Shown here: positions 3,845 through 46,399 of the stretch, piece by piece | How the letters are laid out: the number at the start of each line of letters is the position of its first letter | Numbering within the stretch: position 1 is the stretch's first letter | Assembly (NCBI GenBank): GCA_001724025.1 | Contig: MEDJ01000021.1 | Span: 62,001-126,000, forward strand | DNA: 64,000 nucleotides | Direction of reading: 5' to 3' | Source: Acidobacteria bacterium SCN 69-37 | Lineage (GTDB): Bacteria; Acidobacteriota; Vicinamibacteria; Vicinamibacterales; SCN-69-37 | Made by a program: the position numbers and the translations under genes | Notes under the pieces: model-generated | Databases searched by the model: none | What the model saw: the letters and a program-made list of their open reading frames with translations, nothing else | What the model was told of the DNA's origin: nothing

Positions 3845-5332
3845 GTGAAGCCGTCCCTGCCTGTCGACCGCGTCAGCGGCGCGTCATATCTCCGCGGGCA
3901 CATCTACCGCGAACTTGCCGCCGTGGTCGGCGCCGAGCACATTACCGCCGACCCGGCCGAACTCCAGGCCCAGGCCCACGACTGGTCGTGGATGTCGCGG
4001 TACCTCATCTACAAGCAGCTCGACGTGCCGGCCGCCGATATGGCCGTGCGCCCGGGCTCGACGGACGAGGTGAAGGAGATCGTGCGCATCGCCTCCACGT
4101 GGAAGGTGCCGCTCGTGCCGCGCGGCGGCGGCACGGGCACACAGGGCGGCACGCTGGCGCTCTATGGCGGCATCTCGGTCGATCTCGGCCGCATGGCGAA
4201 GATTCTCGACATCGACGAGACGTCGCTGGTCGTCACGACCGAAGCCGGCATTGCCGGACCGGTACTCGAGGAGGAATTGAACAGGCGGAACCTGACGCAG
4301 GCCCACTACCCGGGGTCGTACACGATGGGCGCCACGGTCGGCGGGTTCATCGCCGCGCGCGGGTCCGGCGTGGTCAGCACGAAATACGGAAAGGCCGAGA
4401 ACCAGGTGCTGCAGATCGAGGCGGTGGTGCCGCCCGGGCGCGTCGTGAAGACCCTGCCCGTGCCGAGCCACGCGACGGGCAGCGATCTGCTCCAGACGTT
4501 CGTCGGATCCGAGGGCACGCTCGGCATCATCACGCAGGCCGCGATGCGGCTCGATCCGCTGCCGGAGACGCGGCAGTTCCTCTCGTTCAGCTTCGCCGAC
4601 ATCTTCGCGGGCATCGAGGCCGGGCGGCAGATCATGATCAACCGCCTCCGGCCGGCCGTCATCCGTCTCTACGACGAGGGCGATTCGAAGAAGCTGGCCG
4701 AGTGGGTCGGCACGCCGTTCATCGGCACGCTGATGATCGTGATGGTCGATGGCACGCAGGAACTGACCGACTACGAAGCCCGCGCCATCACCACGCTCTG
4801 CGAGAAGGCGGGCGGCACGTCGCTCGGTCCGTCGGCCGGGCAGATCTGGTGGGAGGGCAAGTACGAGCCGTACAAGAAGGGCAAGCTGCCGCAGCCGCCG
4901 CTCGTCTACGGCACCACGGACACCGTGGCGCGCTTCCGCGACATTCCGGCCATCTATCGCGCGCGCAAGCAGGCGGTCGAGGAGACGTTCAAGGCGTACG
5001 GTGCGCGCTACACGTGTCACCTGTCGCACTTCTACGACTGGGGCACGATGTTGTACGACCGCTTCTACATCGAGCAGGCGCCCGACGATCCGGCCGAGGC
5101 GCTCGAACTGCACGATCGGATCTGGGATGTCTGCACGCGGGTCGGTCTGGCCAACGGCGGCGTCGTCAACGAGCACCACGGCGTGGGCCTGAAGCTCGGA
5201 CGGTTCGTGCACGAGCAGTACGGACCCGACGGCTGGGCGCTCGTGCAGGCGCTCAAGGACGCGTGGGATCCGGACGGCATCATGAATCCCGGCAAGCTCG
5301 GCTACGGCCCGCCGAAGAATTCGCGCTGGTAG
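3845..5332 (+). CDS. FAD-binding oxidoreductase (FAD_binding_4 / AGPS-GlcD family)
   Basis: 495 residues from a GTG that has GAAGAGGAG eight bases upstream; an in-frame extension 5' overlaps the previous gene and is less likely. The N-terminal PP-loop of the vanillyl-alcohol-oxidase FAD fold is PRGGGTGTQGG (residues ~95-105), followed by GSYTMGATVGGFIAARGSG and GSEGTLGIITQA. The C-terminal cap holds CHLSHFYDWGTMLY, NEHHGVGLKLG and DPDGIMNPGKLG, typical of FAD-oxidase_C. The SHFYDWG segment resembles alkyldihydroxyacetonephosphate synthase more than lactate dehydrogenase, but these families intergrade. It probably oxidises a hydroxy-acid or sugar in the cytoplasm; the partner electron acceptor is not encoded nearby. 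It ends the rightward cluster: the TAG lies inside a 16-bp hairpin stem. Confidence 0.88.
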   Translation: MKPSLPVDRVSGASYLRGHIYRELAAVVGAEHITADPAELQAQAHDWSWMSRYLIYKQLDVPAADMAVRPGSTDEVKEIVRIASTWKVPLVPRGGGTGTQGGTLALYGGISVDLGRMAKILDIDETSLVVTTEAGIAGPVLEEELNRRNLTQAHYPGSYTMGATVGGFIAARGSGVVSTKYGKAENQVLQIEAVVPPGRVVKTLPVPSHATGSDLLQTFVGSEGTLGIITQAAMRLDPLPETRQFLSFSFADIFAGIEAGRQIMINRLRPAVIRLYDEGDSKKLAEWVGTPFIGTLMIVMVDGTQELTDYEARAITTLCEKAGGTSLGPSAGQIWWEGKYEPYKKGKLPQPPLVYGTTDTVARFRDIPAIYRARKQAVEETFKAYGARYTCHLSHFYDWGTMLYDRFYIEQAPDDPAEALELHDRIWDVCTRVGLANGGVVNEHHGVGLKLGRFVHEQYGPDGWALVQALKDAWDPDGIMNPGKLGYGPPKNSRW

Positions 5333-32837: not shown

Positions 32838-33533
32838 ATGAAGACATTCTCTGCCGCCGCAGTGGCGATCGTGCTGGCCATGACTGTCGTCAGCGGCCAG
32901 GAACCGGCCCTGGAAGGGTTGCCGGTGTCGGAGGCCCAGCGCGCGCTCGAAAGCGGCAAGTACGACGACACGCTGGCGCGGATTGCCGAGGCCCGCGAAC
33001 GCGGCGAAGCCGGTCTGGTGGAGGCGTTCCTCGGCGGTCACGCGCAACTGCGCCGCTCGCAGAACGACGCCGCGAAGAACGACTTTCGCGCCCTCGCCGA
33101 CTCGGACGACGAGACGTGGCGGCGCGTGGGCGAATCGTCGATCGCGCAGATCGACGGCGACCTCGATCGCGCGCAGGCCGTCGCGACCGAGGCCACGGCG
33201 CAGATCGACGCCCGCAACGCCGAGGCCACGTCACGTGGCGAACAGCCGCCCTCCGACCCGCCGGCACGCTGGCGCGAGTTCGCGGCGTTCTACCAGCTCG
33301 GCCTGGTGAACATGCGCCGCGAGGACTGGGCCGGCGCCGCGGCCGCCTTCGATCGGGCCGTCGCCCTCAATCCGATGTTCGCCTATGCTCACTACTACGC
33401 GGGCCTGGCCGCGTCGCGGATGAAGCGGCCGGATCAGGTGGCGCGCCACTTCGAGGTCTTCCTGAAGCTCGCCCCCAGTGCCCCGGAACGCGGGGCCGTG
33501 ACCTCGATGATGCGCACGCTGCGCGGTGCGTGA
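32838..33533 (+). CDS. exported TPR-repeat protein
   Basis: 231 residues; ATG preceded by CAGGAGG. Signal peptide (FSAAAVAIVLAMTVVSG). A helical repeat protein: LEGLPVSEAQRALESGKYDD, FLGGHAQLRRSQNDAAKNDF, then a clear TPR pair AFYQLGLVNMRREDWAGAAA-AFDRAVALNPMF / AHYYAGLAASRMKRPDQVAR-HFEVFLKLAPSAPE. Acts as a periplasmic scaffold. It is 67 bp upstream of the giant TamB-Omp85 gene on the same strand, so it may be an accessory factor of that machine; this is inference from position. Confidence 0.88.
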   Translation: MKTFSAAAVAIVLAMTVVSGQEPALEGLPVSEAQRALESGKYDDTLARIAEARERGEAGLVEAFLGGHAQLRRSQNDAAKNDFRALADSDDETWRRVGESSIAQIDGDLDRAQAVATEATAQIDARNAEATSRGEQPPSDPPARWREFAAFYQLGLVNMRREDWAGAAAAFDRAVALNPMFAYAHYYAGLAASRMKRPDQVARHFEVFLKLAPSAPERGAVTSMMRTLRGA

Positions 33534-33600
33534 CACCGATGCCCTGACGTCCTCGCCCGGGTCCCCCCCAGCACCCGGCCGTCGTCGCGCTCCCTGATTC

Positions 33601-36600
33601 ATGAACGATACTGCGGAGCCCCTCGTCTCGCGCCCCCGATGGCGATGGCTGCGGCGCCTGGCCGTCGGGGGCTTCGTGTGCGTGATCGCACTCGTCGCGA
33701 TCGTGCACCTGCCCGTCGTGCGCGGCGCGATCCTCGCGCGTGTCATCACCTCGCTGCAGGCGCAGGGCATCCGGCTGCAGGCCGACAGACTCGCCTACAA
33801 CCTCGCCACGCTCGACGTGACGCTCGAGGGCGTCACCGTCGCGGCCGAGGGCATCGATCCGCCATTCCTGACGCTGGATGCCGTGCGCGTGAACCTGCCG
33901 TGGTCGATCGTGTCCGGCACCATCCACATCGAGTCGGCCGAGGTGACGCGGCCCCGCGTCACGATCGTGCGCGACGCCACCGGCGCGCTGAACCTGCCCG
34001 ATTTCGGCGGCGACGACGACAGCCGTCCGTTCGAGGGACCGGTGCTCATCGACCGTCTGCTGGTGAGCGACCTGGCCGTGCGCTACGAGGATGCGACGAA
34101 CGCCCAGCAGTTCGACCTGCGCGGCGCCACGCTCGACATGACGGCGGGCGCGACGACGCCGCTGGCCGGGACGCTGACCGTGCGCGAACCGGCCACGCTG
34201 CAGATCGGGGATCGCACCACGACCATCAGCCGGCTGGCGTCCAGCCTGACGTTCAACGGGGTCACCATCGGGCTCGATCCGCTCGAGGCCGAGGCCACCG
34301 AAGGACGCGTGCGCATCAGCGGCACCGTCGACGCGTTCGGGGCCGATCCGGATCTGCGGCTCGACTACACGGTCCGCGCCGACGCCACGGGCGCCGCGGC
34401 CTGGCTGCCCGTGACGCCGGCGCCAACAGGCACCGTCGTCGTGGACGGCACGATGTCGGGCGACCGCACGGCCCCGGACGTGGCGTTCGACATCACCACC
34501 GACGCGCTGGCGTGGTCGACGCTGGGCCCGATCGACGTGGGCGGGCGCGGCACGTTTGCCGGCACGGTCGTGGCGCTCGACACGCTCCGGGTCGACGTGG
34601 CGGGCGGCACGCTGACGGCCACCGGACGCGTCGACGTCGACGACGACGGATCGTCCGCGGTGGACGCGCGCTGGACCAACCTCGACCTGGCGCGCCTGCT
34701 GGCCGAGGTGCCCGCCGCCACGGTGCGGCCCGGGGCGATCTCGGACGGATCGCTGACCATGGACTGGACGGGCACGGACGTGCTCGGCGGCCGCATCACG
34801 GCGACGACCCGGCAGCGGGCGCTCGGCGCGCGCCAGAATCTCGTGCCGCTGGCCGGCCGGATCGATCTTGCCAGTCGCGCGCGGCAGTGGACGCTCACCG
34901 GAACGCCGCGCGTGGCCGATGCCATCGACGCGACGGTGCGGGCGACGGGACGGCTGGCCGACGATCTGGCGCAGGCGCCGCTCGCGGGCACCGTCGACAT
35001 CACGGTGGCGGACCTGGCCGCGGCCCTCACCCAGCTCGAGGCCACGGGTCTCGTGCCAGACCTCGGGGACGACACGTCGACGGGCGGTGCCGTCACTGTG
35101 GCGCTCACGCTTGGCGGCACGCTCGCGGTGCCGCGCGCCGCGGGGACGATCGACGGGCAGGCGCTTCGCGTCCAGGGCACGGGACCGGCCACGCTGGCCG
35201 CGCGCGTCGACGCGTCGACGCGCGTCGTGCAGATCGATGACCTGCGTCTCGAACTGGCGACCAATCAGGTGACCGGCCAGGCGACGATCGGGATCGAGGC
35301 CAACACGATCGCCGGCGTCCTCGAGGCGACCCTGCCCGACATCGCGGCGGCGGCCGCGGCCCTCCCCGAGGCCTGGCGGCCGGACGGGGCGGCCACGGTC
35401 TCGGCGACGATCGGCGGCGCGCTCGACAACCCGACCGCCGACCTGCGGATCGCCACGAGCCGGCCGCTCGAAGTGGCCGGCCAGACCATCGATGCGATCA
35501 CTTCCGACGTCCGCGTCGTCAATCGCGTGGCCATCATCGATGCGCTGACGCTCACGCAGCAGGAGGGACAGCTGACCGCGTCGGGTCAGTACGCGTTCGA
35601 CGGCGGCCGCTACACCTTCGACGCGAACGCCACAGGGCTCGTCGTCAATCCCATCATCACGGCTGATGCCGTGGCGTCCCCCGGGGCTGAAGCCCCGGGG
35701 CTCCGAACACCCGCCGCCGCGCAGCCCACCGCCGCGCCGCCTGCCACCATCCCCGTCCACACGCGGATCGACCTCGAGCTGACGGGCAGCGGCACTGTCG
35801 ATGCGCCGCAGGCCAGCGGACAGGTGCGGCTGGCCGACGTGGCCTGGGGCGCGTATCAGATCGGCGCGGCCACGGCCGACGTGGCGGTCGCCGACGGACA
35901 GGCCCACGTCACGGCCACGGTGCCATCCATCAGCGGCCTGGTCGACGCCACGGTCGCGCTCGACTCGCGCCGGCTCACGGCCACCGCCACCATCGACAAC
36001 GCCGAACTCGCCGCGCTCGCGCGCGTCACGGGTCCGGCAGGCCCCGTCACTGATCCTGATGACGCGGACGCGGAGCCCGCCACCGGCGACAGCGCGTCGC
36101 CGCGCACGATCCCGCTGACGGGCACCATCGGCCTCACGGCCGCGGTCGAGGGCGGTCTCGACGACCTCGCCAGCCTGGACGTCACGGCCGGGGTCACCCT
36201 GCGCGATGCCACCGTCAATGGCCTGCCCGTGCGCGCGACGCGGCCGGTGCGCGTGCGGCACACGGCCGGCACGGTCGAGGCCGAGGACGTCGAACTGTTC
36301 ATCGGCGATGCGCGCCTGACCGCACGCGGCCGGCTCGGCACCGACGCGCCCGCTGGCGACGGGCTGGCTGTGGAACTCGTGGGCACGCTGGCCGACTTCG
36401 CGCCGCTCGCACGCCTGGCCCCCGGGTTCGAGGACGCGACGATGGCCGGCAACCTCGAGCTGAACCTGCTCGCGTCGGGTCCCCTGGACGCGCCGGACGT
36501 GACGGCGTACCTCACCGTCACCGACGGCGAGGTGGGCATGGCCGACCTGCCGCCCGCCAGCAATGTCACGCTGGCCGCCACCTACACGGCCGGGATGGTG

Positions 36601-39600
36601 AACGTCAGCGCGATTGGCGCGCACTGGCAGGACGCGGATCTGCTCGCCCTCGGCTACCTGCCGCTGTCGCTGCTCGGCGACGCGATCCCGGCGGCCTACC
36701 GCGCGACGCTGCCGCCCGCGCTCGGCCCGGCGCGCTTCGACGTCCGGCTGTACGGCCTGAGTCCGGAGGCCCTTCGTCCGTTCCTCGATGCCGACTCGGT
36801 GGCGCAGATCACCGGCCAGGTCGATCTCACCGCCGATGTCGAGGCCACGGCCTTCGATCTCGACAGCGTGCGCGCCGAGGTGCGGCTCGATCGCGCCGAC
36901 GTGGAGCTGGCGCGCGTGCCGCTCGCGCAGACCCAGCCGACGCGCCTGCGCCTGGCCAACAGGCGGCTCGACGTGGTCGAGTGGCACTGGGCCGGCACCG
37001 GCAACGAGTTCTCCGTCCGCGGCCACGTGCAGCTCGACGACGCCGCGACCACGCTCGATCTCGGGGTCATGGGATCGCTCGACCTGCGCATGATCAGCGC
37101 GTTCGCGCCCGGCATGGCCACGCGCGGACGCGCGAACCTCGACGTCACCGCCACCGGCGACGCGACCGATCCGGAGCTGGCGGGCACCGTCTCGCTCGAG
37201 GAGACGGACATCATCGTGCGCGACCCGCGCGTGGCCATCACCGACATGACCGGCACCGCGCGCCTGTCGCACAACCGCGTGACGCTCGAGGGGCTGACGG
37301 CCAACGCCAACGGCGGCACGGTGTCGATCATCGGCGACCTGGACTACAGCGACTTCGCGCTCGAGCAGGGCGCTATCACGGTGACCGGGCGCGGCCTGGC
37401 GATCGAGGCGGTCGACGGGCTGCGCACGGAACTGAACGCGGACCTGACGGTGGCCATGGCCAAGGGCGAACCGACGATCGGCGGCCGCGTGACCGTGGTG
37501 CGCGGCGATTACCGCCAGCCGCTGCGCCTGACCGAGCAGCTCTTCTCGACGCTCGAGATGCAGACATCGGGCCCCGGCGCCACAGACGATGGGATGATGA
37601 GCCGGCTGCAGCTCGACCTCACCATCGTCTCGGCCGAGGACATCGTCGTCGACAACAACTACGGCCAGCTCGAGGTGGGGACCAACCTGCGCGTCACCGG
37701 CACGCCGGCGTCTCCGATCCTCGGCGGGCGGCTCGCCCTGCGCGAGGGCGGCGAAATCTTCCTGGGCGGACAGACCTACACGCTGCAGCGCGGGACCATC
37801 GACTTCACGAACGCGACGCGCATCGAGCCGAACTTCGACATCGCGCTCGAAACGCGCGTGCGCAACTACGACATCACGCTCGAACTCTCCGGCACGCCCG
37901 ACGCGCTCGAGGTGGGACTGCGGGGACCGAGCATCACGCAGCAGGACGCGATCTCGCTGCTGCTCACCGGCCAGCTGGCCGAGGACAGCACGACGGCCTA
38001 CTCCGAGGTGGCGCGGGGCCAGCTGCTCATGTTGCTCTCGGGCGAGCTGCTGAGCACGGCCGGACGCGCCGTGGGGCTCGACTCGGTGCAGGTCAGCCGC
38101 GGCCTGGGTGGGGCCGCGTCGACGTTCGACCTGCTGGCCACCGACTCGGATCCCGAGGCGCGACTGACGCTGGCCAAGAACCTCAGCCGCGAGCTCGAGC
38201 TGATCATGTCGCAGAGCCTGCGCAACACGGGCGACATCACGTGGATTGCCGTCTATCGGCCGGTGCGGCGCATCGAACTGCGCGCGGCCACCGACGACGC
38301 GAGCCGCGAGACGTACGAGTTCCGACACGAGATCCAGTTCGGGGGCGCGCCGGGCGCGGCGGCGAACGGACCGACGCGCCGGGTCGATCCGCGCATCTCG
38401 GGCATCTTCATCGAGGGCGCGCCGGGCATCCCCAACAGCGAGTTGATGAATCAGATGCGGCTCGGCGTCGGCGATCGCTTCGACTACTTCGACTGGCAGC
38501 GGGACCGCGATCGCCTGGCCGCGTTCTACCAGTCGCGCGGCTTCCTGGAAGCGCGCATCGCCCCGCGGCGCGAGCCGTCGGCCGATGGGCAGCAGATGGC
38601 GCTGACGTACAACATCCGCCAGGGCCCGCGCACGACGCTCCGCGTCGAGGGATTCACGCTGTCACGAGCCACGACGGCAGAGATCGAAGACGCCTGGTCG
38701 CAGTCGGTGTTCGACGGCTTCCTCGAAGACGACGCCGAGCGGATCGTGCAGCGCGCGCTGGTGCGGGCGCGCCATCTGCAGGGCACCGTCGACGCGTCGA
38801 TGTCGACCGACGCGGACGGCGCGAACAAGACGCTGACGATCGCGATCGCCCCCGGCCCGGAATCCACCACGCGCCGGATCGACTTCACGGGCAACAAGGC
38901 CCTGTCGACCAGCGAGCTGCGATCGGCTGTCGACGCGCAGAACGGCACCGTGGCCGTCTGGCTCGAACGGGACGCGATCGAGACGACGCTCGCGGCGCTC
39001 TATCGATCGCGCGGATATCTCAGCGCCGACGTGACGGTGAGCGCACCGCGCTTCGAGAACGGCACGGCCGTGCTGCCGGTCCGGATCGACGAAGGGCCGG
39101 CGTATCGCCTCGGCACGATCGGCGTCAGCGGCGCGGCATTCCGCACGGCCGATGCCGTGCGCCAGGTGACCGGCCTGCAGTCGGGCACCCCGTATCTGCC
39201 CGGCGAGGTCGAGCCCGCGCGCCGGCGCGTGGAGGTCGACTACCTCGGCGCCGGGTACAACACCGTCAGCGTGTCGACCATTGTCGGCATCGACGAGGAT
39301 CGCGCCGTGGCCGACGTCGTCTTTGCCGTGGCCGAGGGTCCGCAGCAGATACTGCAGGACGTGACGGTCAGCGGCACGCGCGTGACGTCCGACGGGACGA
39401 TCGACCGCGCGCTCCGGCTCGACATGGGCAAACCGCTCGACATGAGCGATGTCTATGCGGCGCAGAAGCGGCTTTACGACACGAGCGTGTTCCAGCGCGT
39501 GGACGTCGAGGTGGAGCCGATCGAAGGCGCCGAGGCGGCGCCGGGCACGCAGCCGGTGCGGGCAGTGGTCGGCCTCCAGGAGATGCCGCGCTTCCGGTTC

Positions 39601-40599
39601 CGCTACGGCTTCCGCATCAGCGACTCTCCGGGCCCGGCCGAGGAGAGCCATCAGATCCGTCCCGGACTGGTCTCCGATTTCCTGAACCGCAACCTGTTCG
39701 GCCGTGCGATTGCCGCGGGCGTGGCGGGCCAGCTCGAGTCCGACCGCTATCTCGCGCGCGGCATCCTGTCGCTGCCCACGCCCTTCCGCCTGCCGCTGAC
39801 GACGAACGTGTTCCTGACCTGGTCGCGTCAGACGATCGGGGAAGACGCGGACGACATCACGCCGTACGTCAAGCAGGCACGCGAGCTGACGTTCGAGCAG
39901 CGCATGCGACCGGCGCGGACCATGTCGGTGTCGTGGGGTTACACCTACGGCCGCACGCACGAATACCTGCTCACGCCCGATCCCTTCACCGACTTCGACG
40001 AGATTACCTACGTCGCGCGGCTGACGGGCACGTACGCGTGGGACACGCGCGACGACCCGTCGAACGCGACGCGCGGCTGGTTCCACTCGTCCGGTCTCGA
40101 GTACGCGCCGGGCCGGCTCGGATCGAACCTGAAGTTCGTGCGGTACCTTGCGCAGCAGTACTACTTCCACACGCTGGGGGAACACGTCACCCTGGCGTCT
40201 GCGCTGCGCGTCGGACTCGGACGCGGCTTCGGACAGGACCTCCCGTCGACCGAGCGGTTCTACACGGGCGGCGGCACGAGCGTGCGCGGGTTCGCCGAAG
40301 AGGCCATCGGCGGCCGCGATTTCTTCGGCTTCCTCATCGGCGGCGCCAGCCTGTTCCAGTTCAACCAGGAAGTGCGCTTCCCGATCTTCCGCTGGGTCCG
40401 CGGCGTGGGATTCTTCGACACCGGCAACATCTTCCCCACGATCCGCGATCTCTCGTTGACCACGCTCGAACGCGGCGCCGGCCTCGGCCTGCGCATCCAG
40501 TCGCCGTTCGCGATCATCCGCGTCGACTACGGCATCCCGCTCTCGAACCGCCAGAACGAACGCGCGCGGTGGTACTTCGGGATCGGGCAGACGTTCTAG
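33601..40599 (+). CDS. single-chain TAM: TamB (AsmA-like/DUF490) fused to POTRA and Omp85 beta-barrel
   Basis: 2,332 residues without a frame break. One N-terminal membrane anchor (residues ~20-42, LAVGGFVCVIALVAIVHLP). Residues ~45-1580 are the repetitive beta-helix of TamB, ending in the conserved TamB C-terminal domain (GRRV-TVVRGDYRQPLRLTE; GLRGPSITQQDAISLLLTGQ; WIAVYRPVRRIEL). Residues ~1595-1990 contain several POTRA-type repeats (e.g. RIDFTGNKALSTSELR; GTIGVSGAAFRTADAVRQ; TVSGTRVTSDGTIDRALRL). The rest is a 16-strand-type Omp85 barrel with the L6 motif GGGTSVRGFAEEAIGG (VRGF near residue 2228) and a terminal aromatic (GIGQTF). In Proteobacteria TamB (inner-membrane anchored) and TamA (outer membrane) are separate proteins; here one chain would span the envelope. 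A dispersed palindrome is inserted in frame at residues ~693-700. Confidence 0.93.
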   Translation: MNDTAEPLVSRPRWRWLRRLAVGGFVCVIALVAIVHLPVVRGAILARVITSLQAQGIRLQADRLAYNLATLDVTLEGVTVAAEGIDPPFLTLDAVRVNLPWSIVSGTIHIESAEVTRPRVTIVRDATGALNLPDFGGDDDSRPFEGPVLIDRLLVSDLAVRYEDATNAQQFDLRGATLDMTAGATTPLAGTLTVREPATLQIGDRTTTISRLASSLTFNGVTIGLDPLEAEATEGRVRISGTVDAFGADPDLRLDYTVRADATGAAAWLPVTPAPTGTVVVDGTMSGDRTAPDVAFDITTDALAWSTLGPIDVGGRGTFAGTVVALDTLRVDVAGGTLTATGRVDVDDDGSSAVDARWTNLDLARLLAEVPAATVRPGAISDGSLTMDWTGTDVLGGRITATTRQRALGARQNLVPLAGRIDLASRARQWTLTGTPRVADAIDATVRATGRLADDLAQAPLAGTVDITVADLAAALTQLEATGLVPDLGDDTSTGGAVTVALTLGGTLAVPRAAGTIDGQALRVQGTGPATLAARVDASTRVVQIDDLRLELATNQVTGQATIGIEANTIAGVLEATLPDIAAAAAALPEAWRPDGAATVSATIGGALDNPTADLRIATSRPLEVAGQTIDAITSDVRVVNRVAIIDALTLTQQEGQLTASGQYAFDGGRYTFDANATGLVVNPIITADAVASPGAEAPGLRTPAAAQPTAAPPATIPVHTRIDLELTGSGTVDAPQASGQVRLADVAWGAYQIGAATADVAVADGQAHVTATVPSISGLVDATVALDSRRLTATATIDNAELAALARVTGPAGPVTDPDDADAEPATGDSASPRTIPLTGTIGLTAAVEGGLDDLASLDVTAGVTLRDATVNGLPVRATRPVRVRHTAGTVEAEDVELFIGDARLTARGRLGTDAPAGDGLAVELVGTLADFAPLARLAPGFEDATMAGNLELNLLASGPLDAPDVTAYLTVTDGEVGMADLPPASNVTLAATYTAGMVNVSAIGAHWQDADLLALGYLPLSLLGDAIPAAYRATLPPALGPARFDVRLYGLSPEALRPFLDADSVAQITGQVDLTADVEATAFDLDSVRAEVRLDRADVELARVPLAQTQPTRLRLANRRLDVVEWHWAGTGNEFSVRGHVQLDDAATTLDLGVMGSLDLRMISAFAPGMATRGRANLDVTATGDATDPELAGTVSLEETDIIVRDPRVAITDMTGTARLSHNRVTLEGLTANANGGTVSIIGDLDYSDFALEQGAITVTGRGLAIEAVDGLRTELNADLTVAMAKGEPTIGGRVTVVRGDYRQPLRLTEQLFSTLEMQTSGPGATDDGMMSRLQLDLTIVSAEDIVVDNNYGQLEVGTNLRVTGTPASPILGGRLALREGGEIFLGGQTYTLQRGTIDFTNATRIEPNFDIALETRVRNYDITLELSGTPDALEVGLRGPSITQQDAISLLLTGQLAEDSTTAYSEVARGQLLMLLSGELLSTAGRAVGLDSVQVSRGLGGAASTFDLLATDSDPEARLTLAKNLSRELELIMSQSLRNTGDITWIAVYRPVRRIELRAATDDASRETYEFRHEIQFGGAPGAAANGPTRRVDPRISGIFIEGAPGIPNSELMNQMRLGVGDRFDYFDWQRDRDRLAAFYQSRGFLEARIAPRREPSADGQQMALTYNIRQGPRTTLRVEGFTLSRATTAEIEDAWSQSVFDGFLEDDAERIVQRALVRARHLQGTVDASMSTDADGANKTLTIAIAPGPESTTRRIDFTGNKALSTSELRSAVDAQNGTVAVWLERDAIETTLAALYRSRGYLSADVTVSAPRFENGTAVLPVRIDEGPAYRLGTIGVSGAAFRTADAVRQVTGLQSGTPYLPGEVEPARRRVEVDYLGAGYNTVSVSTIVGIDEDRAVADVVFAVAEGPQQILQDVTVSGTRVTSDGTIDRALRLDMGKPLDMSDVYAAQKRLYDTSVFQRVDVEVEPIEGAEAAPGTQPVRAVVGLQEMPRFRFRYGFRISDSPGPAEESHQIRPGLVSDFLNRNLFGRAIAAGVAGQLESDRYLARGILSLPTPFRLPLTTNVFLTWSRQTIGEDADDITPYVKQARELTFEQRMRPARTMSVSWGYTYGRTHEYLLTPDPFTDFDEITYVARLTGTYAWDTRDDPSNATRGWFHSSGLEYAPGRLGSNLKFVRYLAQQYYFHTLGEHVTLASALRVGLGRGFGQDLPSTERFYTGGGTSVRGFAEEAIGGRDFFGFLIGGASLFQFNQEVRFPIFRWVRGVGFFDTGNIFPTIRDLSLTTLERGAGLGLRIQSPFAIIRVDYGIPLSNRQNERARWYFGIGQTF
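35679..35700. repeat. in-frame palindrome CCCCGGGGCT-GA-AGCCCCGGGG
   Basis: Ten-base perfect arms inside the TamB part of the fusion gene, translated as ASPGAEAPGLR. Next to it the protein has a Pro/Ala-rich stretch (TPAAAQPTAAPPATIPVH) not seen elsewhere in the beta-helix, suggesting an insertion tolerated in a loop. Confidence 0.8.
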
Positions 40600-40672
40600 G
40601 GAGGCGGGGAGGCTGCAGGCGGGAAGGAGACTGGGAGGCGGGAAGGGCGGAAGGCGGGAAGGCTCTTCGGAG

Positions 40673-40694
40673 CCCTGGGGCTTCAGCCCCAGGG
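40673..40694. repeat. CCCTGGGGCT-TC-AGCCCCAGGG palindrome
   Basis: Ten-base perfect arms between the convergent fusion gene and the MscS gene, following a purine-rich stretch of GGGAGGC/GGGAAGGC stutters (40602-40670). It may serve as a two-way terminator; the same palindrome recurs at 32571, 32689 and 48436. Confidence 0.75.
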
Positions 40695-40705
40695 AAACTT
40701 CAGCA

Positions 40706-41815
40706 CTACCGCCGTCCGAGATTGATCGGCTGATGGGGTGACGGGATTTCGATGTCGGCGGCCTCGAACGCGGGCTTGATGCGGCGCAGCAGTTCGCGGC
40801 CCACGTCGGCCTGCTTCAGTGGCCGCGTCTTGATCCGCACGCGAATGGCGACCTGCGATTCGCGCAGCGCTTCCACGCCGAGAATCTCGAGCGGCGCGAG
40901 GATCAGCGGCTGCAGCTGCGCATCCGCGGCCAGCTCGTCACCCACCTGCCGCAGCGTGGCCATCACGCGATCGAGATCGTTGCGGTACGAGACGGCCACG
41001 TCCGTTGTGTAGTACGAGAAGTCCTTCGATCGATTGGCGAGCTGCGCGATCGCCCCGCTCGGGAACACGTGAATCGTGCCATCGCCGTCGCGCAGGACCA
41101 CGGTCCGCAGGTTGATCTGCTCGATCGTCCCGCCCGTGCCGTTGATGATGGCGACATCGCCCACGCGAATCTGGTTCTCGACGATCAGGAAGAAGCCCGA
41201 AATCAGGTCGCGGACGAACGTCTGGCCGCCGAACCCGACCGCCAGGCCGAGGATGCCCGCGCCGGTGAGGATGGGCGTGATGTCGACGTGCACCTCGCGC
41301 AGGCTCATCAGCGTGGCCAGCGAGACGACGAGCGACGTGGCCGCATTGCGCACCAGCCCGCCAAGCGTCCGCGCCCGTTTCGTGCGATCGGCGAGATCCG
41401 GCCCGACGGCCCGGGAGACGTGCGCCTCGAGCTGCCGCGACGCCTCGCCGACAATGCGGACGAGCACGTAGCTCGCCATGAGAATCACGACAATGCGGAG
41501 GCCCGATCCGAACAGCCAGCCGCTCACGGCCTCGGGCGACAGGCCCACGCGCAGATCGATGCCCGCGAGCCGGATCGCCGGCAGGCAGACCACGGGCAGC
41601 AGCACGACGAACGCCGTCCACCGGATGACACGCGTGGGGCGGCGGATGTCCGGGTCGTGCACCGACATCGCGCGCTCGCGCCGCCTCGCCAGGGCCAGCA
41701 GGGCGACGGCCACCAGTCGCGCCGTCAGCGTGGCCGCGACGTACGCCACGCCGACGCCGGCCACCGCCCAGAGGACGGCCCACCAGAAGCCGCCCGGCAT
41801 CTCCTGCGAAAACAT
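40706..41815 (-). CDS. MscS-family mechanosensitive ion channel
   Basis: 369 residues. Four predicted membrane helices; the pore-lining helix and start of the beta domain are recognisable in ILTGAGILGLAVGFGGQTFV-RDLISGFFLIVENQIRVGDV, followed by IEQINLRTVVLRDGDGTIHVFPSG (the MscS beta domain) and a C-terminal alpha/beta domain ending IEIPSPHQPINLGRR. The family opens under membrane tension and releases solutes on hypo-osmotic shock. It starts 7 bp after the stop of the YtxJ-like gene, so the two form a leftward operon; it converges with the TamB-Omp85 gene. Confidence 0.93.
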   Translation of the reverse strand: MFSQEMPGGFWWAVLWAVAGVGVAYVAATLTARLVAVALLALARRRERAMSVHDPDIRRPTRVIRWTAFVVLLPVVCLPAIRLAGIDLRVGLSPEAVSGWLFGSGLRIVVILMASYVLVRIVGEASRQLEAHVSRAVGPDLADRTKRARTLGGLVRNAATSLVVSLATLMSLREVHVDITPILTGAGILGLAVGFGGQTFVRDLISGFFLIVENQIRVGDVAIINGTGGTIEQINLRTVVLRDGDGTIHVFPSGAIAQLANRSKDFSYYTTDVAVSYRNDLDRVMATLRQVGDELAADAQLQPLILAPLEILGVEALRESQVAIRVRIKTRPLKQADVGRELLRRIKPAFEAADIEIPSPHQPINLGRR

Positions 41816-42331: not shown

Positions 42332-45300
42332 ATGACGATTGTGCTCAGACTCGTGCTTCCTGTCCTGTTTCTGGGCCTCGGCTTCCCGACGGCGGCCATG
42401 GCTCAGGCAACGCGCCCCGTGTCGACCGAATCCGACCTGCGCGCCGCGCTCGCCGAAGGCCAGCCCGGCGACACGATCGTGCTCCAGTCGGACATCACGC
42501 TGACGTCCGATCTCCCCGAGATCAGGCGCACGCTGACGCTCGACGGTGGTGGCTTCACGCTGTCCGGGGCCGGCGAGTACCGCGGGCTCGTCACGCAGAC
42601 GCTCGACTATTTCGACACGGTGGCCGTCACGCTCCGGAACCTGACGATTGCCGACACGCTGGCGCGCGGCGGCACGAACGACTCCGGCTACGGCGAAGCG
42701 GGCCTGGGCGGCGCGCTCTACATCGGGAGCGACACCTTCGTCACGGTGGACAACGTGGCCATCCGCTCGAGCCACGCCATCGGCAGTTCGGGCACATTGC
42801 CGGGGGCCGGCGGCGGCGCGGGTCTCGGCGGCGGCGTGTTCATCGATGGCTCGGGCATGCTCCGCGTGGAGACCCGCTTCGATCTCGATGGCAACCGCGT
42901 CGAGGGCGGCGCGGGCAACGCCGGCGGCCCTGACGGCCAGGCGCTCGGCTCCGGGATCTTCCTCACCGGCTCCGGCCAGCTCGACATGACGATGGCGGAG
43001 GGCATCACCAGCACGATCGCGGACGACATCGTCGACATGACCGGCGCGGGCGTCCCGGACGGCGGGTCGTGGCGCCTGCAGAAGTGCGGCGGCGGCACGC
43101 TGATCCTGACGGGCGACAACCGCTACGCCGGCGGCACCACCGTCTGCGGCGGCACCCTCCAGGTGGCCAGCGAGCGCAGCCTCGGCTCCGGCGAGGTGGC
43201 GCTCGCGAACGGCACGCTGTCGATCACCGGGAACGCCAGCGTCGCCAACGACCTGATCGTCGGCACGAACAGCACGGTGCGCGTGGCCGCGGGCCGCACG
43301 GTCGCGTGGCACGGGACGATCGACGACTACGCCGAAGAGGGCGACTCGCTCATCGGCACGCTGCGCCTCGAGGGCGGCGGCGTGCTCGATCTCACCAACA
43401 CGGCCAACGACTACCAGGGCGGCACGGTCGTCGTCGGCGGCAGCACGGTGCGCGTGAGCCAGGACGGCGCACTCGGCCGCCAGATCGGTCAACTGACGCT
43501 CGGCGACGGCACGGGTACGGGCACGCTCGCGATCGCGGCCGGGAGCGGCTTCTCGTCCACCCGCACGATCGTGCTCGGTGCGGCCGGCGGCGCGTTCGAC
43601 ACGGAGACCGGCGCCACGGCGGTCTTGAACGGTGTGGTGATGGGCCCCGGCGGCCTGACGAAGCGCGGGGCCGGCACGCTCGTGCTCGCAAACGCCGCCA
43701 CGCGCTACGCCGGACCGACAGACGTCGCTCAGGGCACGCTGCGCACGGGTGCGGCCAACCTCTTCACGCCCACCGCCGCGCTGCGCGTCGGCGACGCGGG
43801 CATCGTCGATCTGGACGGCTTCTCGCAGGCGGTCGGCAGCCTGACGGGCAACGGCGCCATCACGCTCGGCACGGCCACGCTCACCATCGGATCCGGCGGC
43901 ACGACGAGCGCCTTCGGCGGCCGCATCAGCGGCAACGGCCAGGTCGTCAAGATTGGCGACGGCACGCTCACGTTGACGGGAACCAATACCTACACGGGCG
44001 GCACGCTCGTCGCCGGCGGCATCCTGCGGGGCACGACGTCCGGTCTCCAGGGTGCCATCGTCAACGACGCCACGGTGGTCTTCGATCAGGCGGCGAGCGG
44101 CACGTACGCCGGCGCGATGTCCGGCACGGGGACGCTCGTGAAGGAAGGGAACGGCCGGCTCACGCTCGCCGGCGCCAACAGCTACACGGGCGGCACGACG
44201 GTGACCGCCGGGGTTCTGGCCGGCACCACGGCCAGTCTTCAGGGCGCCATCACCAACAACGCGACCGTGGTGTTCGAACAGCACACCGATGGCACGTATG
44301 CGGGCACGATGAGCGGCACGGGCGCGCTCGTGAAGGAAGGCAATGGCCGGCTCACGCTGACCGGCGCCCATACCTACGCGGGCGGCACGACGGTGACGGG
44401 CGGCACGCTTGCCGGCACCACGGCCAGCCTCCAGGGCGCCATCGCCAATGACGCGCTGGTGGTCTTCGATCAGGCATTCGACGGCACGTTCGGCGGCACG
44501 ATGACCGGTTCCGGCGTCGTGCAGAAGACCGGCCTCGGCACGCTGAGCCTCGCGGGGGCCCTCGCGCACACGGGCGGCACCGTTGTCAGTGGCGGGCAGT
44601 TGGCGGGCACGGCCACCACGCTGCGCGGCACGATCGTCAACGACGCGACCGTCACGTTCGGCGGCAGCGCCAGCGGCACGTTCGAGGGGCAGCTGGCGGG
44701 CAGCGGGACGTTCAACAAGATCGGCGCCGGAACGCTGCGCCTCACGGGCACGCACGCCCACGACGGGCTGTTCAACGTGGGCGCCGGCGTGCTCGAACTC
44801 GACGGCCTGCTGGCGAGCCGGATCGCCGTGGCACCGGGCGCCACGCTGCGCGCCGTCGGCACGATTCTCGGCACGACGACCGTCGGCGGCGCGCTCGTCG
44901 TGCCCTCGCCCACGGCCGCAGCCACCGTCGCCCGCTCCATCGCGGCCGCCGGTGACGACGCGGGTCGGCTGCCGCTGCTGACGTTTGGCGGCGACCTGTT
45001 CCTGACGCCGGGCTCGCACCTGTCGCTGCCCGTTACCTTCGGCGACGTGCCGACCGTGTTCGTTGCGGGATCGGCGAACATCAGCGGCGCCATCGTCGAC
45101 GTCACCCCCGTCGCGCCCCTCACCGAACGGACGACCTCGTTCCTTGCGCTCAGCGCCGCCAATGGTCTCCAGATCACCGGCGCGACAGGGGCGTCGTCGA
45201 ACCCGCTGTACGTGCCCGTGCTCAACCCGGGGCGCAACGCGCTCGTCGTGACCATCCTGAACCTCGGGATTCCGCTCGGCGGAGACGTCACGAGTCCCAG

Positions 45301-46399
45301 CGCCAGGTCGGTCGGCGACGTGCTCGATCGCTTCAAGGACGATCCGACAGACGACCAGCAGACGGTGATCCGCGAGTTGACCGGGCTGTCCGACGGCGAT
45401 CTCGACCGCGCGCTGCGGCAGATCTCGGGCGAAGCGCACGCCTCGTTCGTGCAGATCGGCGTCCGCGATGCCGAGGCCAACAACGACCTGATCCGGCAGC
45501 ACATCTCGTCGCGACGACGGGATGTGCGCCCGGGTGCCGACCTGGGTGCGAGCTGGTGGGGCCAGATGGGCGGCGAGCACACGCGGCTCAAGAACGCAGC
45601 CGGCGATCAGGTCGGCGCCATCGATCTCGGATCGGGCACGGGCGGCATGGACTATCACCCGTCGGACCGGTGGACGTTCGGGCTTGGCGCCGGGCTCTCG
45701 GGCGGCGGCATCAACATCACCGACCTGATTTCGTCGGGCGACATCCTGTCACCGCGGGCCTTCGGCTATGCGGGCTGGCGGCCCGGGGACTTCGGTGGCT
45801 TCACGGGCGGGGCCACGTTCGCGCGACAGGACATGGACACGACGCGACGGATCGTCTTCCAGGGGCGGCTGCCCGACGAGCTCGGTGGCGACCCGATCGG
45901 CGAGGGCGTCGATCGCGAGGCCCAGGCCGAGGAGGTCACGCTGGTCAAGGATCAGTGGACCGACTGGGACGACGAGCACGAGTTCGGGACGTACTCGCTC
46001 TCGTACGTGCTCGGCTATCGCCGCGCGACGTTCACGCGGCGCGGCTTCATCGAGAGCGGGGCGGATTCGCTGTCGCTCGAGATGCCGGAGCAGACCCTGA
46101 AGCTGCGGCAGGCCAATGCCCTGGTGAACGTGTGGCGGCGCGAGGGCGACTTCCAGCCGTTCGGCGAGTTCCTCTATCGCCGCGAGTTCACCGACGGCCG
46201 AACGACCACGCAGCTCGAGTTCCCCGACGCAGGCGACAGCCGCTTCTCGGTGGAGGGTTTGCCCGCGCCGCAGAACGTCGTGCGGCTCCAGCTGGGCGCG
46301 ACCTGGTACACGAAGTCACGCATCTGGAAGTTCGAGTATCACTATCGCAACGCCACAGGTCAGACGACGCACGGCGGGTCGCTGCACGTGAGCTTCTAG
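42332..46399 (+). CDS. autotransporter (type V secretion) with autotransporter-associated beta-strand repeats
   Basis: 1,355 residues. Signal peptide (VLRLVLPVLFLGLGFPTAAM). The passenger is a right-handed beta-helix: LTLDGGGFTLSGAGEYRGLV in front, then many TIGR02601-type repeats (GGGTLILTGDNRYAGGTTV; DGTLTLTGTNTYTGGTLVAG). Four of them between 43937 and 44704 are 64-residue units almost identical at DNA level. The C-terminal ~290 residues form an autotransporter beta-barrel: WGQMGGEHTRLKN, WTFGLGAGLSGGGINI, FGYAGWRPGDFGGFTGGATF, VLGYRRATFTRRGF, ending GSLHVSF with terminal Phe. Between passenger and barrel lies an SGEAHASFVQIG linker typical for the family. Exported and displayed on the cell surface; function of the passenger (adhesion or other) is unknown. 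Divergent from ytxJ. Confidence 0.92.
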   Translation: MTIVLRLVLPVLFLGLGFPTAAMAQATRPVSTESDLRAALAEGQPGDTIVLQSDITLTSDLPEIRRTLTLDGGGFTLSGAGEYRGLVTQTLDYFDTVAVTLRNLTIADTLARGGTNDSGYGEAGLGGALYIGSDTFVTVDNVAIRSSHAIGSSGTLPGAGGGAGLGGGVFIDGSGMLRVETRFDLDGNRVEGGAGNAGGPDGQALGSGIFLTGSGQLDMTMAEGITSTIADDIVDMTGAGVPDGGSWRLQKCGGGTLILTGDNRYAGGTTVCGGTLQVASERSLGSGEVALANGTLSITGNASVANDLIVGTNSTVRVAAGRTVAWHGTIDDYAEEGDSLIGTLRLEGGGVLDLTNTANDYQGGTVVVGGSTVRVSQDGALGRQIGQLTLGDGTGTGTLAIAAGSGFSSTRTIVLGAAGGAFDTETGATAVLNGVVMGPGGLTKRGAGTLVLANAATRYAGPTDVAQGTLRTGAANLFTPTAALRVGDAGIVDLDGFSQAVGSLTGNGAITLGTATLTIGSGGTTSAFGGRISGNGQVVKIGDGTLTLTGTNTYTGGTLVAGGILRGTTSGLQGAIVNDATVVFDQAASGTYAGAMSGTGTLVKEGNGRLTLAGANSYTGGTTVTAGVLAGTTASLQGAITNNATVVFEQHTDGTYAGTMSGTGALVKEGNGRLTLTGAHTYAGGTTVTGGTLAGTTASLQGAIANDALVVFDQAFDGTFGGTMTGSGVVQKTGLGTLSLAGALAHTGGTVVSGGQLAGTATTLRGTIVNDATVTFGGSASGTFEGQLAGSGTFNKIGAGTLRLTGTHAHDGLFNVGAGVLELDGLLASRIAVAPGATLRAVGTILGTTTVGGALVVPSPTAAATVARSIAAAGDDAGRLPLLTFGGDLFLTPGSHLSLPVTFGDVPTVFVAGSANISGAIVDVTPVAPLTERTTSFLALSAANGLQITGATGASSNPLYVPVLNPGRNALVVTILNLGIPLGGDVTSPSARSVGDVLDRFKDDPTDDQQTVIRELTGLSDGDLDRALRQISGEAHASFVQIGVRDAEANNDLIRQHISSRRRDVRPGADLGASWWGQMGGEHTRLKNAAGDQVGAIDLGSGTGGMDYHPSDRWTFGLGAGLSGGGINITDLISSGDILSPRAFGYAGWRPGDFGGFTGGATFARQDMDTTRRIVFQGRLPDELGGDPIGEGVDREAQAEEVTLVKDQWTDWDDEHEFGTYSLSYVLGYRRATFTRRGFIESGADSLSLEMPEQTLKLRQANALVNVWRREGDFQPFGEFLYRREFTDGRTTTQLEFPDAGDSRFSVEGLPAPQNVVRLQLGATWYTKSRIWKFEYHYRNATGQTTHGGSLHVSF
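43937..44704 (+). repeat. four 192-bp direct repeats within the autotransporter gene
   Basis: Units at about 43937, 44129, 44321 and 44513, each encoding 64 residues. Units 2 and 3 share LVKEGNGRLTLxGAxxYxGG and TLAGTTASLQGAI-type segments with few changes. Such long near-identical repeats allow unit gain or loss by recombination. Confidence 0.75.

Follow-up and report, generated by a model that had tools for sequence, protein, structure and literature searches.

Described TamB and Omp85 systems

In Proteobacteria, TamB and TamA are separate proteins that meet in the periplasm. In the sections of the 2026 structural study of E. coli TamAB drawn on here, the last TamB strand pairs with TamA β1, TamB touches the POTRAs and the groove stops ~23 Å short of the membrane (PMC12800296). 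Acidobacteria have been described as carrying TamB, a duplicated BamA whose second copy is close to TamA, and BamA–TamB gene pairs (Heinz et al. 2015, PMC4494059), and the words "fusion" and "fused" are absent from the main text of that study. In the Bacteroidota TamL–TamB system, as presented in the relevant sections of PMC12045153, TamL is a lipoprotein separate from TamB, and tamB2 and tamL2 overlap at their stop and start codons, an arrangement able to give rise to a fusion. The parts of the Omp85/TpsB survey used here (Heinz and Lithgow 2014, PMC4104836) distinguish ten subfamilies in which barrels carry alternative N-terminal domains; one is likened to a BamA–BamB fusion, and those parts of its main text mention no TamB/DUF490 fusion. 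A natural fusion is likewise unmentioned in the corresponding parts of the 2024 TAM review (PMC11014939), the 2025 TamL study (PMC12045153), the 2026 Borrelia study (PMC13382580) and the 2026 TamAB structure (PMC12800296). Phrase searches of the open-access literature, supplements aside, found no description of a TamB–Omp85 fusion, although it may have been mentioned in other sources or be present in databases simply as a domain architecture.

The DNA analysed here (the window) is a stretch of 64,000 nucleotides from an acidobacterial genome of 4.43 Mb in 25 contigs, in which no 16S gene was detected. It encodes TamB and an Omp85 barrel, kept separate in most bacteria, as a single chain. This chain resembles the TAM of Proteobacteria, in which TamB also contacts the POTRAs, in its TamB architecture (signal anchor, β-taco and C-terminal strands) and in its Omp85 barrel with VRGF. 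However, TAM consists of two proteins encoded as tamA then tamB, with three POTRAs in TamA, whereas the fusion is one chain with TamB first and five POTRAs. With the BamA–TamB pairs of Acidobacteria and Spirochaetes it shares the combination of TamB with a BamA-type Omp85, but those are described as separate proteins in the sections consulted (PMC4494059; Borrelia BAM–TAM, PMC13382580). The features of the locus are as follows.

32838..33533, + strand: gene for a periplasmic TPR protein of 231 aa that has a Sec-type signal peptide (Pfam TPR_2; linkage and co-occurrence)
33601..40599, + strand: fused tamB–omp85 gene, a single ORF of 2,332 aa (Pfam; orthologous single frames)
33640..33705, + strand: N-terminal signal-anchor helix, residues 14–35 (AF2 helix H14–35; maximum hydropathy 2.9)
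33769..37926, + strand: TamB/DUF748 β-taco, residues ~57–1442 (Pfam; AF2 strands; amphipathic alternation relative to shuffles)
38083..38340, + strand: TamB C-terminal six-strand domain, residues 1495–1580 (AF2 strands 315–400 of the C-part model)
38341..38388, + strand: linker, residues 1581–1596, with no signal-peptide-like segment (alignment, hydropathy)
38389..39585, + strand: five POTRA domains, residues ~1597–1995 (Pfam POTRA; AF2; VIA-align to BamA from model residue 417)
39592..40596, + strand: 16-strand Omp85 barrel, residues ~1998–2332, with VRGF in loop 6 (Pfam; AF2; invariant columns; TamA, BamA and Sam50 folds)
42332–46399, + strand: large autotransporter-like protein with PATR repeats, encoded 3' of the fused gene

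Reading frame and domain order

The frame starts with ATG, is bounded 5' by an in-frame TGA (33595–33597) and runs without an internal stop, and its anchor was recovered as an AF2 helix; the single uninterrupted frame with an N-terminal anchor proposed in the first-pass annotation was thus confirmed. Two other long ORFs, at 33367–38328 on the minus strand and at 36981–40733 in another frame, were taken as by-products of high GC content.

In Pfam searches, DUF748 matched residues 10–667 (2e-21; 76.3 bits against a cut-off of 50), TamB (PF04357) residues 1231–1566 (1.7e-27; 97.1 bits against 22.4), POTRA four stretches beginning at residue 1597 (2.7e-33) and Omp85 residues 2031–2332 (1.9e-44). 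The TamB, POTRA and Omp85 matches, suggested earlier as a check on the protein, each exceeded their cut-offs and lay in this order. The ~1,500-residue AsmA/DUF490 β-helix of the first-pass annotation was borne out by the TamB and DUF748 matches and a long run of strands, but its assignment to AsmA was not, as PF05170 scored below its own cut-off (21.2 against 29.8 bits). The fused protein also fell below the NCBI equivalogue cut-offs for ATportTamB (61.9 against 825 bits) and ATportTamA (102.9 against 625 bits), the five modelled POTRAs likewise placing it outside TamA, and below that of the BamA equivalogue TIGR03303 (238.7 against 297 bits). It belongs to the Omp85 superfamily by its POTRA repeats and its 16-strand barrel with the VRGF/Y loop-6 motif. 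The signal anchor, β-helical or taco body and OMP-like last strand of TamB are all present, with the last strand internal rather than at the C-terminus.

Distribution in Acidobacteriota

Full-length alignments of the window protein with 11 relatives showed 27%–37% identity, and invariant residues occurred both before and after the junction. A PF04357 search of 40 relatives revealed many families of the window's order with long single frames. Stop-to-stop frame lengths from a genome search can mislead on fusion, and a 2,411-aa frame proved to be an unfused pair; fusion was therefore scored only where both domains lay in one ORF. A domain scan of the fetched loci yielded 49 such ORFs, of which two lay at contig ends and had a short Omp85 part; the 47 fused loci that entered the trees represented some 27 family codes within the phylum. 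Excluding frames broken or cut by contig ends, the fused frames spanned 1,964–2,539 aa. The fused profile matched in 54 of the 129 genomes of the order (E < 1e-140), nearly always as a single frame of at least 2,000 aa, and a fused frame was counted among the matches listed in ~30 of 119 genomes sampled across the phylum. The named matches, several of them Vicinamibacterales, were all Acidobacteriota. The single-chain version is old and widespread in this phylum, across which the first-pass annotation had called for a survey.

These data also bear on an assembly chimera or a missed frameshift near residue 1580, which had been named as grounds for rejecting the fusion. The same architecture occurs as a single frame in dozens of independent genomes, one of them (G088) a single contig of 5.985 Mb, and such an artefact at the junction is therefore rejected. 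A contig scan with the single junction sequence as query returned no match. At one locus (L098, 1868–8664 of G175:C747) the fused gene is broken into two frames of 904 and 1,361 aa that overlap by four bases inside the TamB part, the cause being either an error in sequencing or a second split that arose naturally. In some genomes the fused gene is present as two paralogues (L026 and L027 in G037; L093 and L094 in G182).

Unfused pairs and a possible origin of the fusion

The window's genome also encodes, on contig C10, an unfused TamB (1,382 aa) directly followed by an Omp85 that carries a signal peptide of its own, and a separate 888-aa Omp85 on contig C8 that is likely BamA. Because this unfused pair is kept, the fused paralogue may be specialised here. 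Unfused tamB–omp85 pairs (type A) are common to many relatives, and the reverse order, omp85 then tamB (type C), occurs in some. The N-termini of type C Omp85 proteins are lipobox-like (LAACHEEG, LAGCHEEG, ATGCHDE; L036 5325–7454, L037 3783–6251, L039 13370–15247 and L128 614–2521), which points to TamL-like lipoproteins in Acidobacteriota. To our knowledge, TamL has been described as almost confined to Bacteroidetes/Chlorobi.

Trees of the Omp85 half, the TamB half and their concatenation agreed in outline. Fused sequences formed a 27-row clade including the window, a 15-row clade and two small groups (f25/f76 and f37) interspersed with unfused type-A pairs. Three changes of the fused label were needed on the concatenated tree, each imposed by branches whose support was 95 or higher. 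A single fused clade was rejected at a cost of 158 log-likelihood units (p-AU 4e-54) in a test that used a reduced set of 31 rows, a simpler model and a group named after the trees had been seen. The fusion apparently arose more than once. The change counts fit either repeated fusion or a single fusion followed by splits; the former seems likelier, since any split would also require a new signal peptide. As E. coli carries tamA followed by tamB, type A is the order that loss of a stop codon could fuse, and unfused type-A pairs would be the obvious source of the fusion by this route.

In all 15 genomes of the second fused clade, the fused gene was the only PF04357 match, and the fused chain must therefore do all TamB work in this clade. 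Further Omp85 genes were found in the 12 of these genomes that were checked, including a BamA-sized one in several.

Predicted structure and the junction

AF2 models were obtained for two parts of the chain separately rather than for the whole: residues 1–1195 (N-part; 24 sequences, pLDDT 83.4, pTM 0.52) and residues 1181–2332 (C-part; 47 sequences, pLDDT 82.8, pTM 0.71). The N-part comprised the anchor helix, a second helix (residues 38–53) and a long run of strands. The C-part comprised, in order, taco strands, low-confidence helices, the six-strand C-domain, five POTRAs and a 16-strand barrel. It matched BamA in Foldseek (1e-40) and TamA, BamA and Sam50 in VIA-align (Z 20–22). The POTRA repeats noted earlier from the sequence were therefore recovered, their modelled number being that of BamA (five) and not that of TamA (three), and the 16-strand-type barrel with VRGF was upheld by the modelled strands, the Pfam Omp85 match and the motif residues R2229 and G2230, which are invariant among relatives. 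Between residues 150 and 1500, one strand face was more hydrophobic in every 150-residue block (alternation 2.1–3.6, compared with 1.4–1.9 in shuffles). In Foldseek and VIA-align, all matches to the N-part were weak, and no solved TamB was among those listed, an absence that does not speak for a different fold. In the two-part models, the taco strands end near residue 1442, and helices, the C-domain, the linker and the five POTRAs lie between them and the barrel.

Unfused TamB proteins end at their last strand (e.g., LDFRIRYVF). In the fused chain, the equivalent beta-signal-like strand, ETYEFRHEIQF, closes the six-strand domain and is retained internally, ~16 residues separating YEFRHEIQF from POTRA1. 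Unfused Omp85 proteins have a hydrophobic signal segment ahead of the POTRAs, whereas mean hydropathy at the window junction peaks at just 0.5. Across the fused rows (n = 49) the median was 0.73, with some values up to 1.97, the higher ones mostly in small fused groups with longer or different linkers. Because the signal peptide of its unfused homologues is missing, the Omp85 half must be exported within the chain. An internal start giving a separately exported Omp85 was considered and is unlikely, the junction holding no signal-peptide-like segment. One frame with all domains supports the true covalent TamB–Omp85 chain of the first-pass annotation and, with it, a stoichiometry fixed at 1:1 as translated. 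The link would also allow the TamB and Omp85 parts to touch.

A linked TPR gene

A gene for a TPR protein lies directly upstream of the fused gene in the window, and its homologues adjoin the fused gene in most related loci. Among the 129 genomes of the order, 42 carried the TPR gene, 41 of them together with the fusion, while 13 had the fusion alone, one the TPR gene alone and 74 neither (Fisher p 5e-21, uncorrected for ancestry). Forty of the 43 TPR matches in the order lay 3–843 bp from the fused gene. The arrangement varied: 39 of the 43 were convergent and just 3' of the fused gene, whereas the window's copy is 5' and on the same strand. The latter placement also occurs in G175, from a more distant family, and a homologue is adjacent in G263 (L074) as well. 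In the sole TPR-positive genome of the order with no fused gene detected nearby, the TPR gene lies at 4184–4897 of L170 (G358:C10). Within the window's family, among the genomes searched, only the window's genome has either the fusion or the TPR gene, the two therefore having been gained or lost jointly.

Across this order, the fusion has the TPR gene as a conserved partner, an association that is new here. Its product is likely an accessory to the fusion, comparable in kind to BamD-type TPR subunits, with no claim of homology, and may bind the fused chain.

Proposed function and alternative explanations

The fused chain is probably a single-chain translocation and assembly module, a TAM-like machine. 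The N-terminal signal anchor would hold it in the inner membrane and direct the whole chain through Sec, and the ~1,400-residue β-taco would span the periplasm as a hydrophobic groove. The C-terminal strands of the taco would be tethered by the short linker straight to POTRA1, placing the five-POTRA arm and the laterally gated Omp85 barrel at the outer membrane. A covalent link would thereby take the place of the binding between TamB and its Omp85 partner, keeping bridge and barrel together at 1:1, and outer-membrane proteins, and probably phospholipids, would be passed from the bridge to the gate. By analogy with TamB homologues, the fused chain could serve both OMP assembly and the transport of lipids or other clients. 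The retained strand would sit at the far end of the five-POTRA arm, tied to POTRA1; it might remain docked there, or the arm might fold back and bring the strand to the gate of its own barrel or to that of a neighbour. A more far-reaching version can be offered only tentatively: a self-contained single-chain conduit that spans the envelope and has its own periplasmic TPR partner, whose groove feeds lipids or unfolded barrels into its own lateral gate as an intramolecular TamAB hybrid barrel, and which evolved repeatedly from adjacent tamB and omp85 genes and is able to replace the two-protein TAM.

The chain might instead be mainly a lipid bridge of the AsmA/VPS13 kind, in which the barrel serves merely as an outer-membrane anchor and takes no part in inserting proteins. 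The sections considered of PMC8912898 and PMC12800296 link the TamB family to phospholipid transport, and weak structural matches of the N-part include LPD-3 (Foldseek E 2.9e-5; Z 8.5), an N-terminal fragment of Vps13 (Z 7.4) and ApoB. However, unrelated beta proteins score like these lipid-groove matches, and a barrel with VRGF and the other conserved Omp85 features, preceded by five POTRAs, exceeds what an anchor would require; we regard this explanation as rather improbable. Cleavage in the linker would yield an ordinary two-protein complex of TamB and Omp85, the fusion then serving only co-export and equal amounts. Short and variable, with many Arg, Ala, Pro and Gly residues, the linker would suit cleavage by a periplasmic protease, whereas its alignment contains no conserved cleavage motif and its length remains short across the window's clade, neither point being decisive. 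Such processing is considered unlikely, and the chain presumably stays uncleaved. A dedicated assembly device for the neighbouring PATR-repeat protein, encoded 1.7 kb downstream, would accord with the assembly of autotransporters by TAM in Proteobacteria, as covered in the sections used of PMC11014939. However, no homologue of this protein occurs in the few-kb flanks of 43 related fused loci, leaving little probability for a dedicated role.

A TAM-like single-chain machine bears on two open questions that appear in the parts of PMC11014939 and PMC12800296 drawn on here: whether TamB and Omp85 form a permanent 1:1 unit, and how lipids would pass from the groove beyond the POTRAs to the outer membrane. 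As one polypeptide, the fusion is convenient for structure determination and reconstitution, and the linked TPR gene hints at an accessory factor. A natural fusion found in several groups, and as the sole TamB in one of them, provides independent evidence for the permanent unit.
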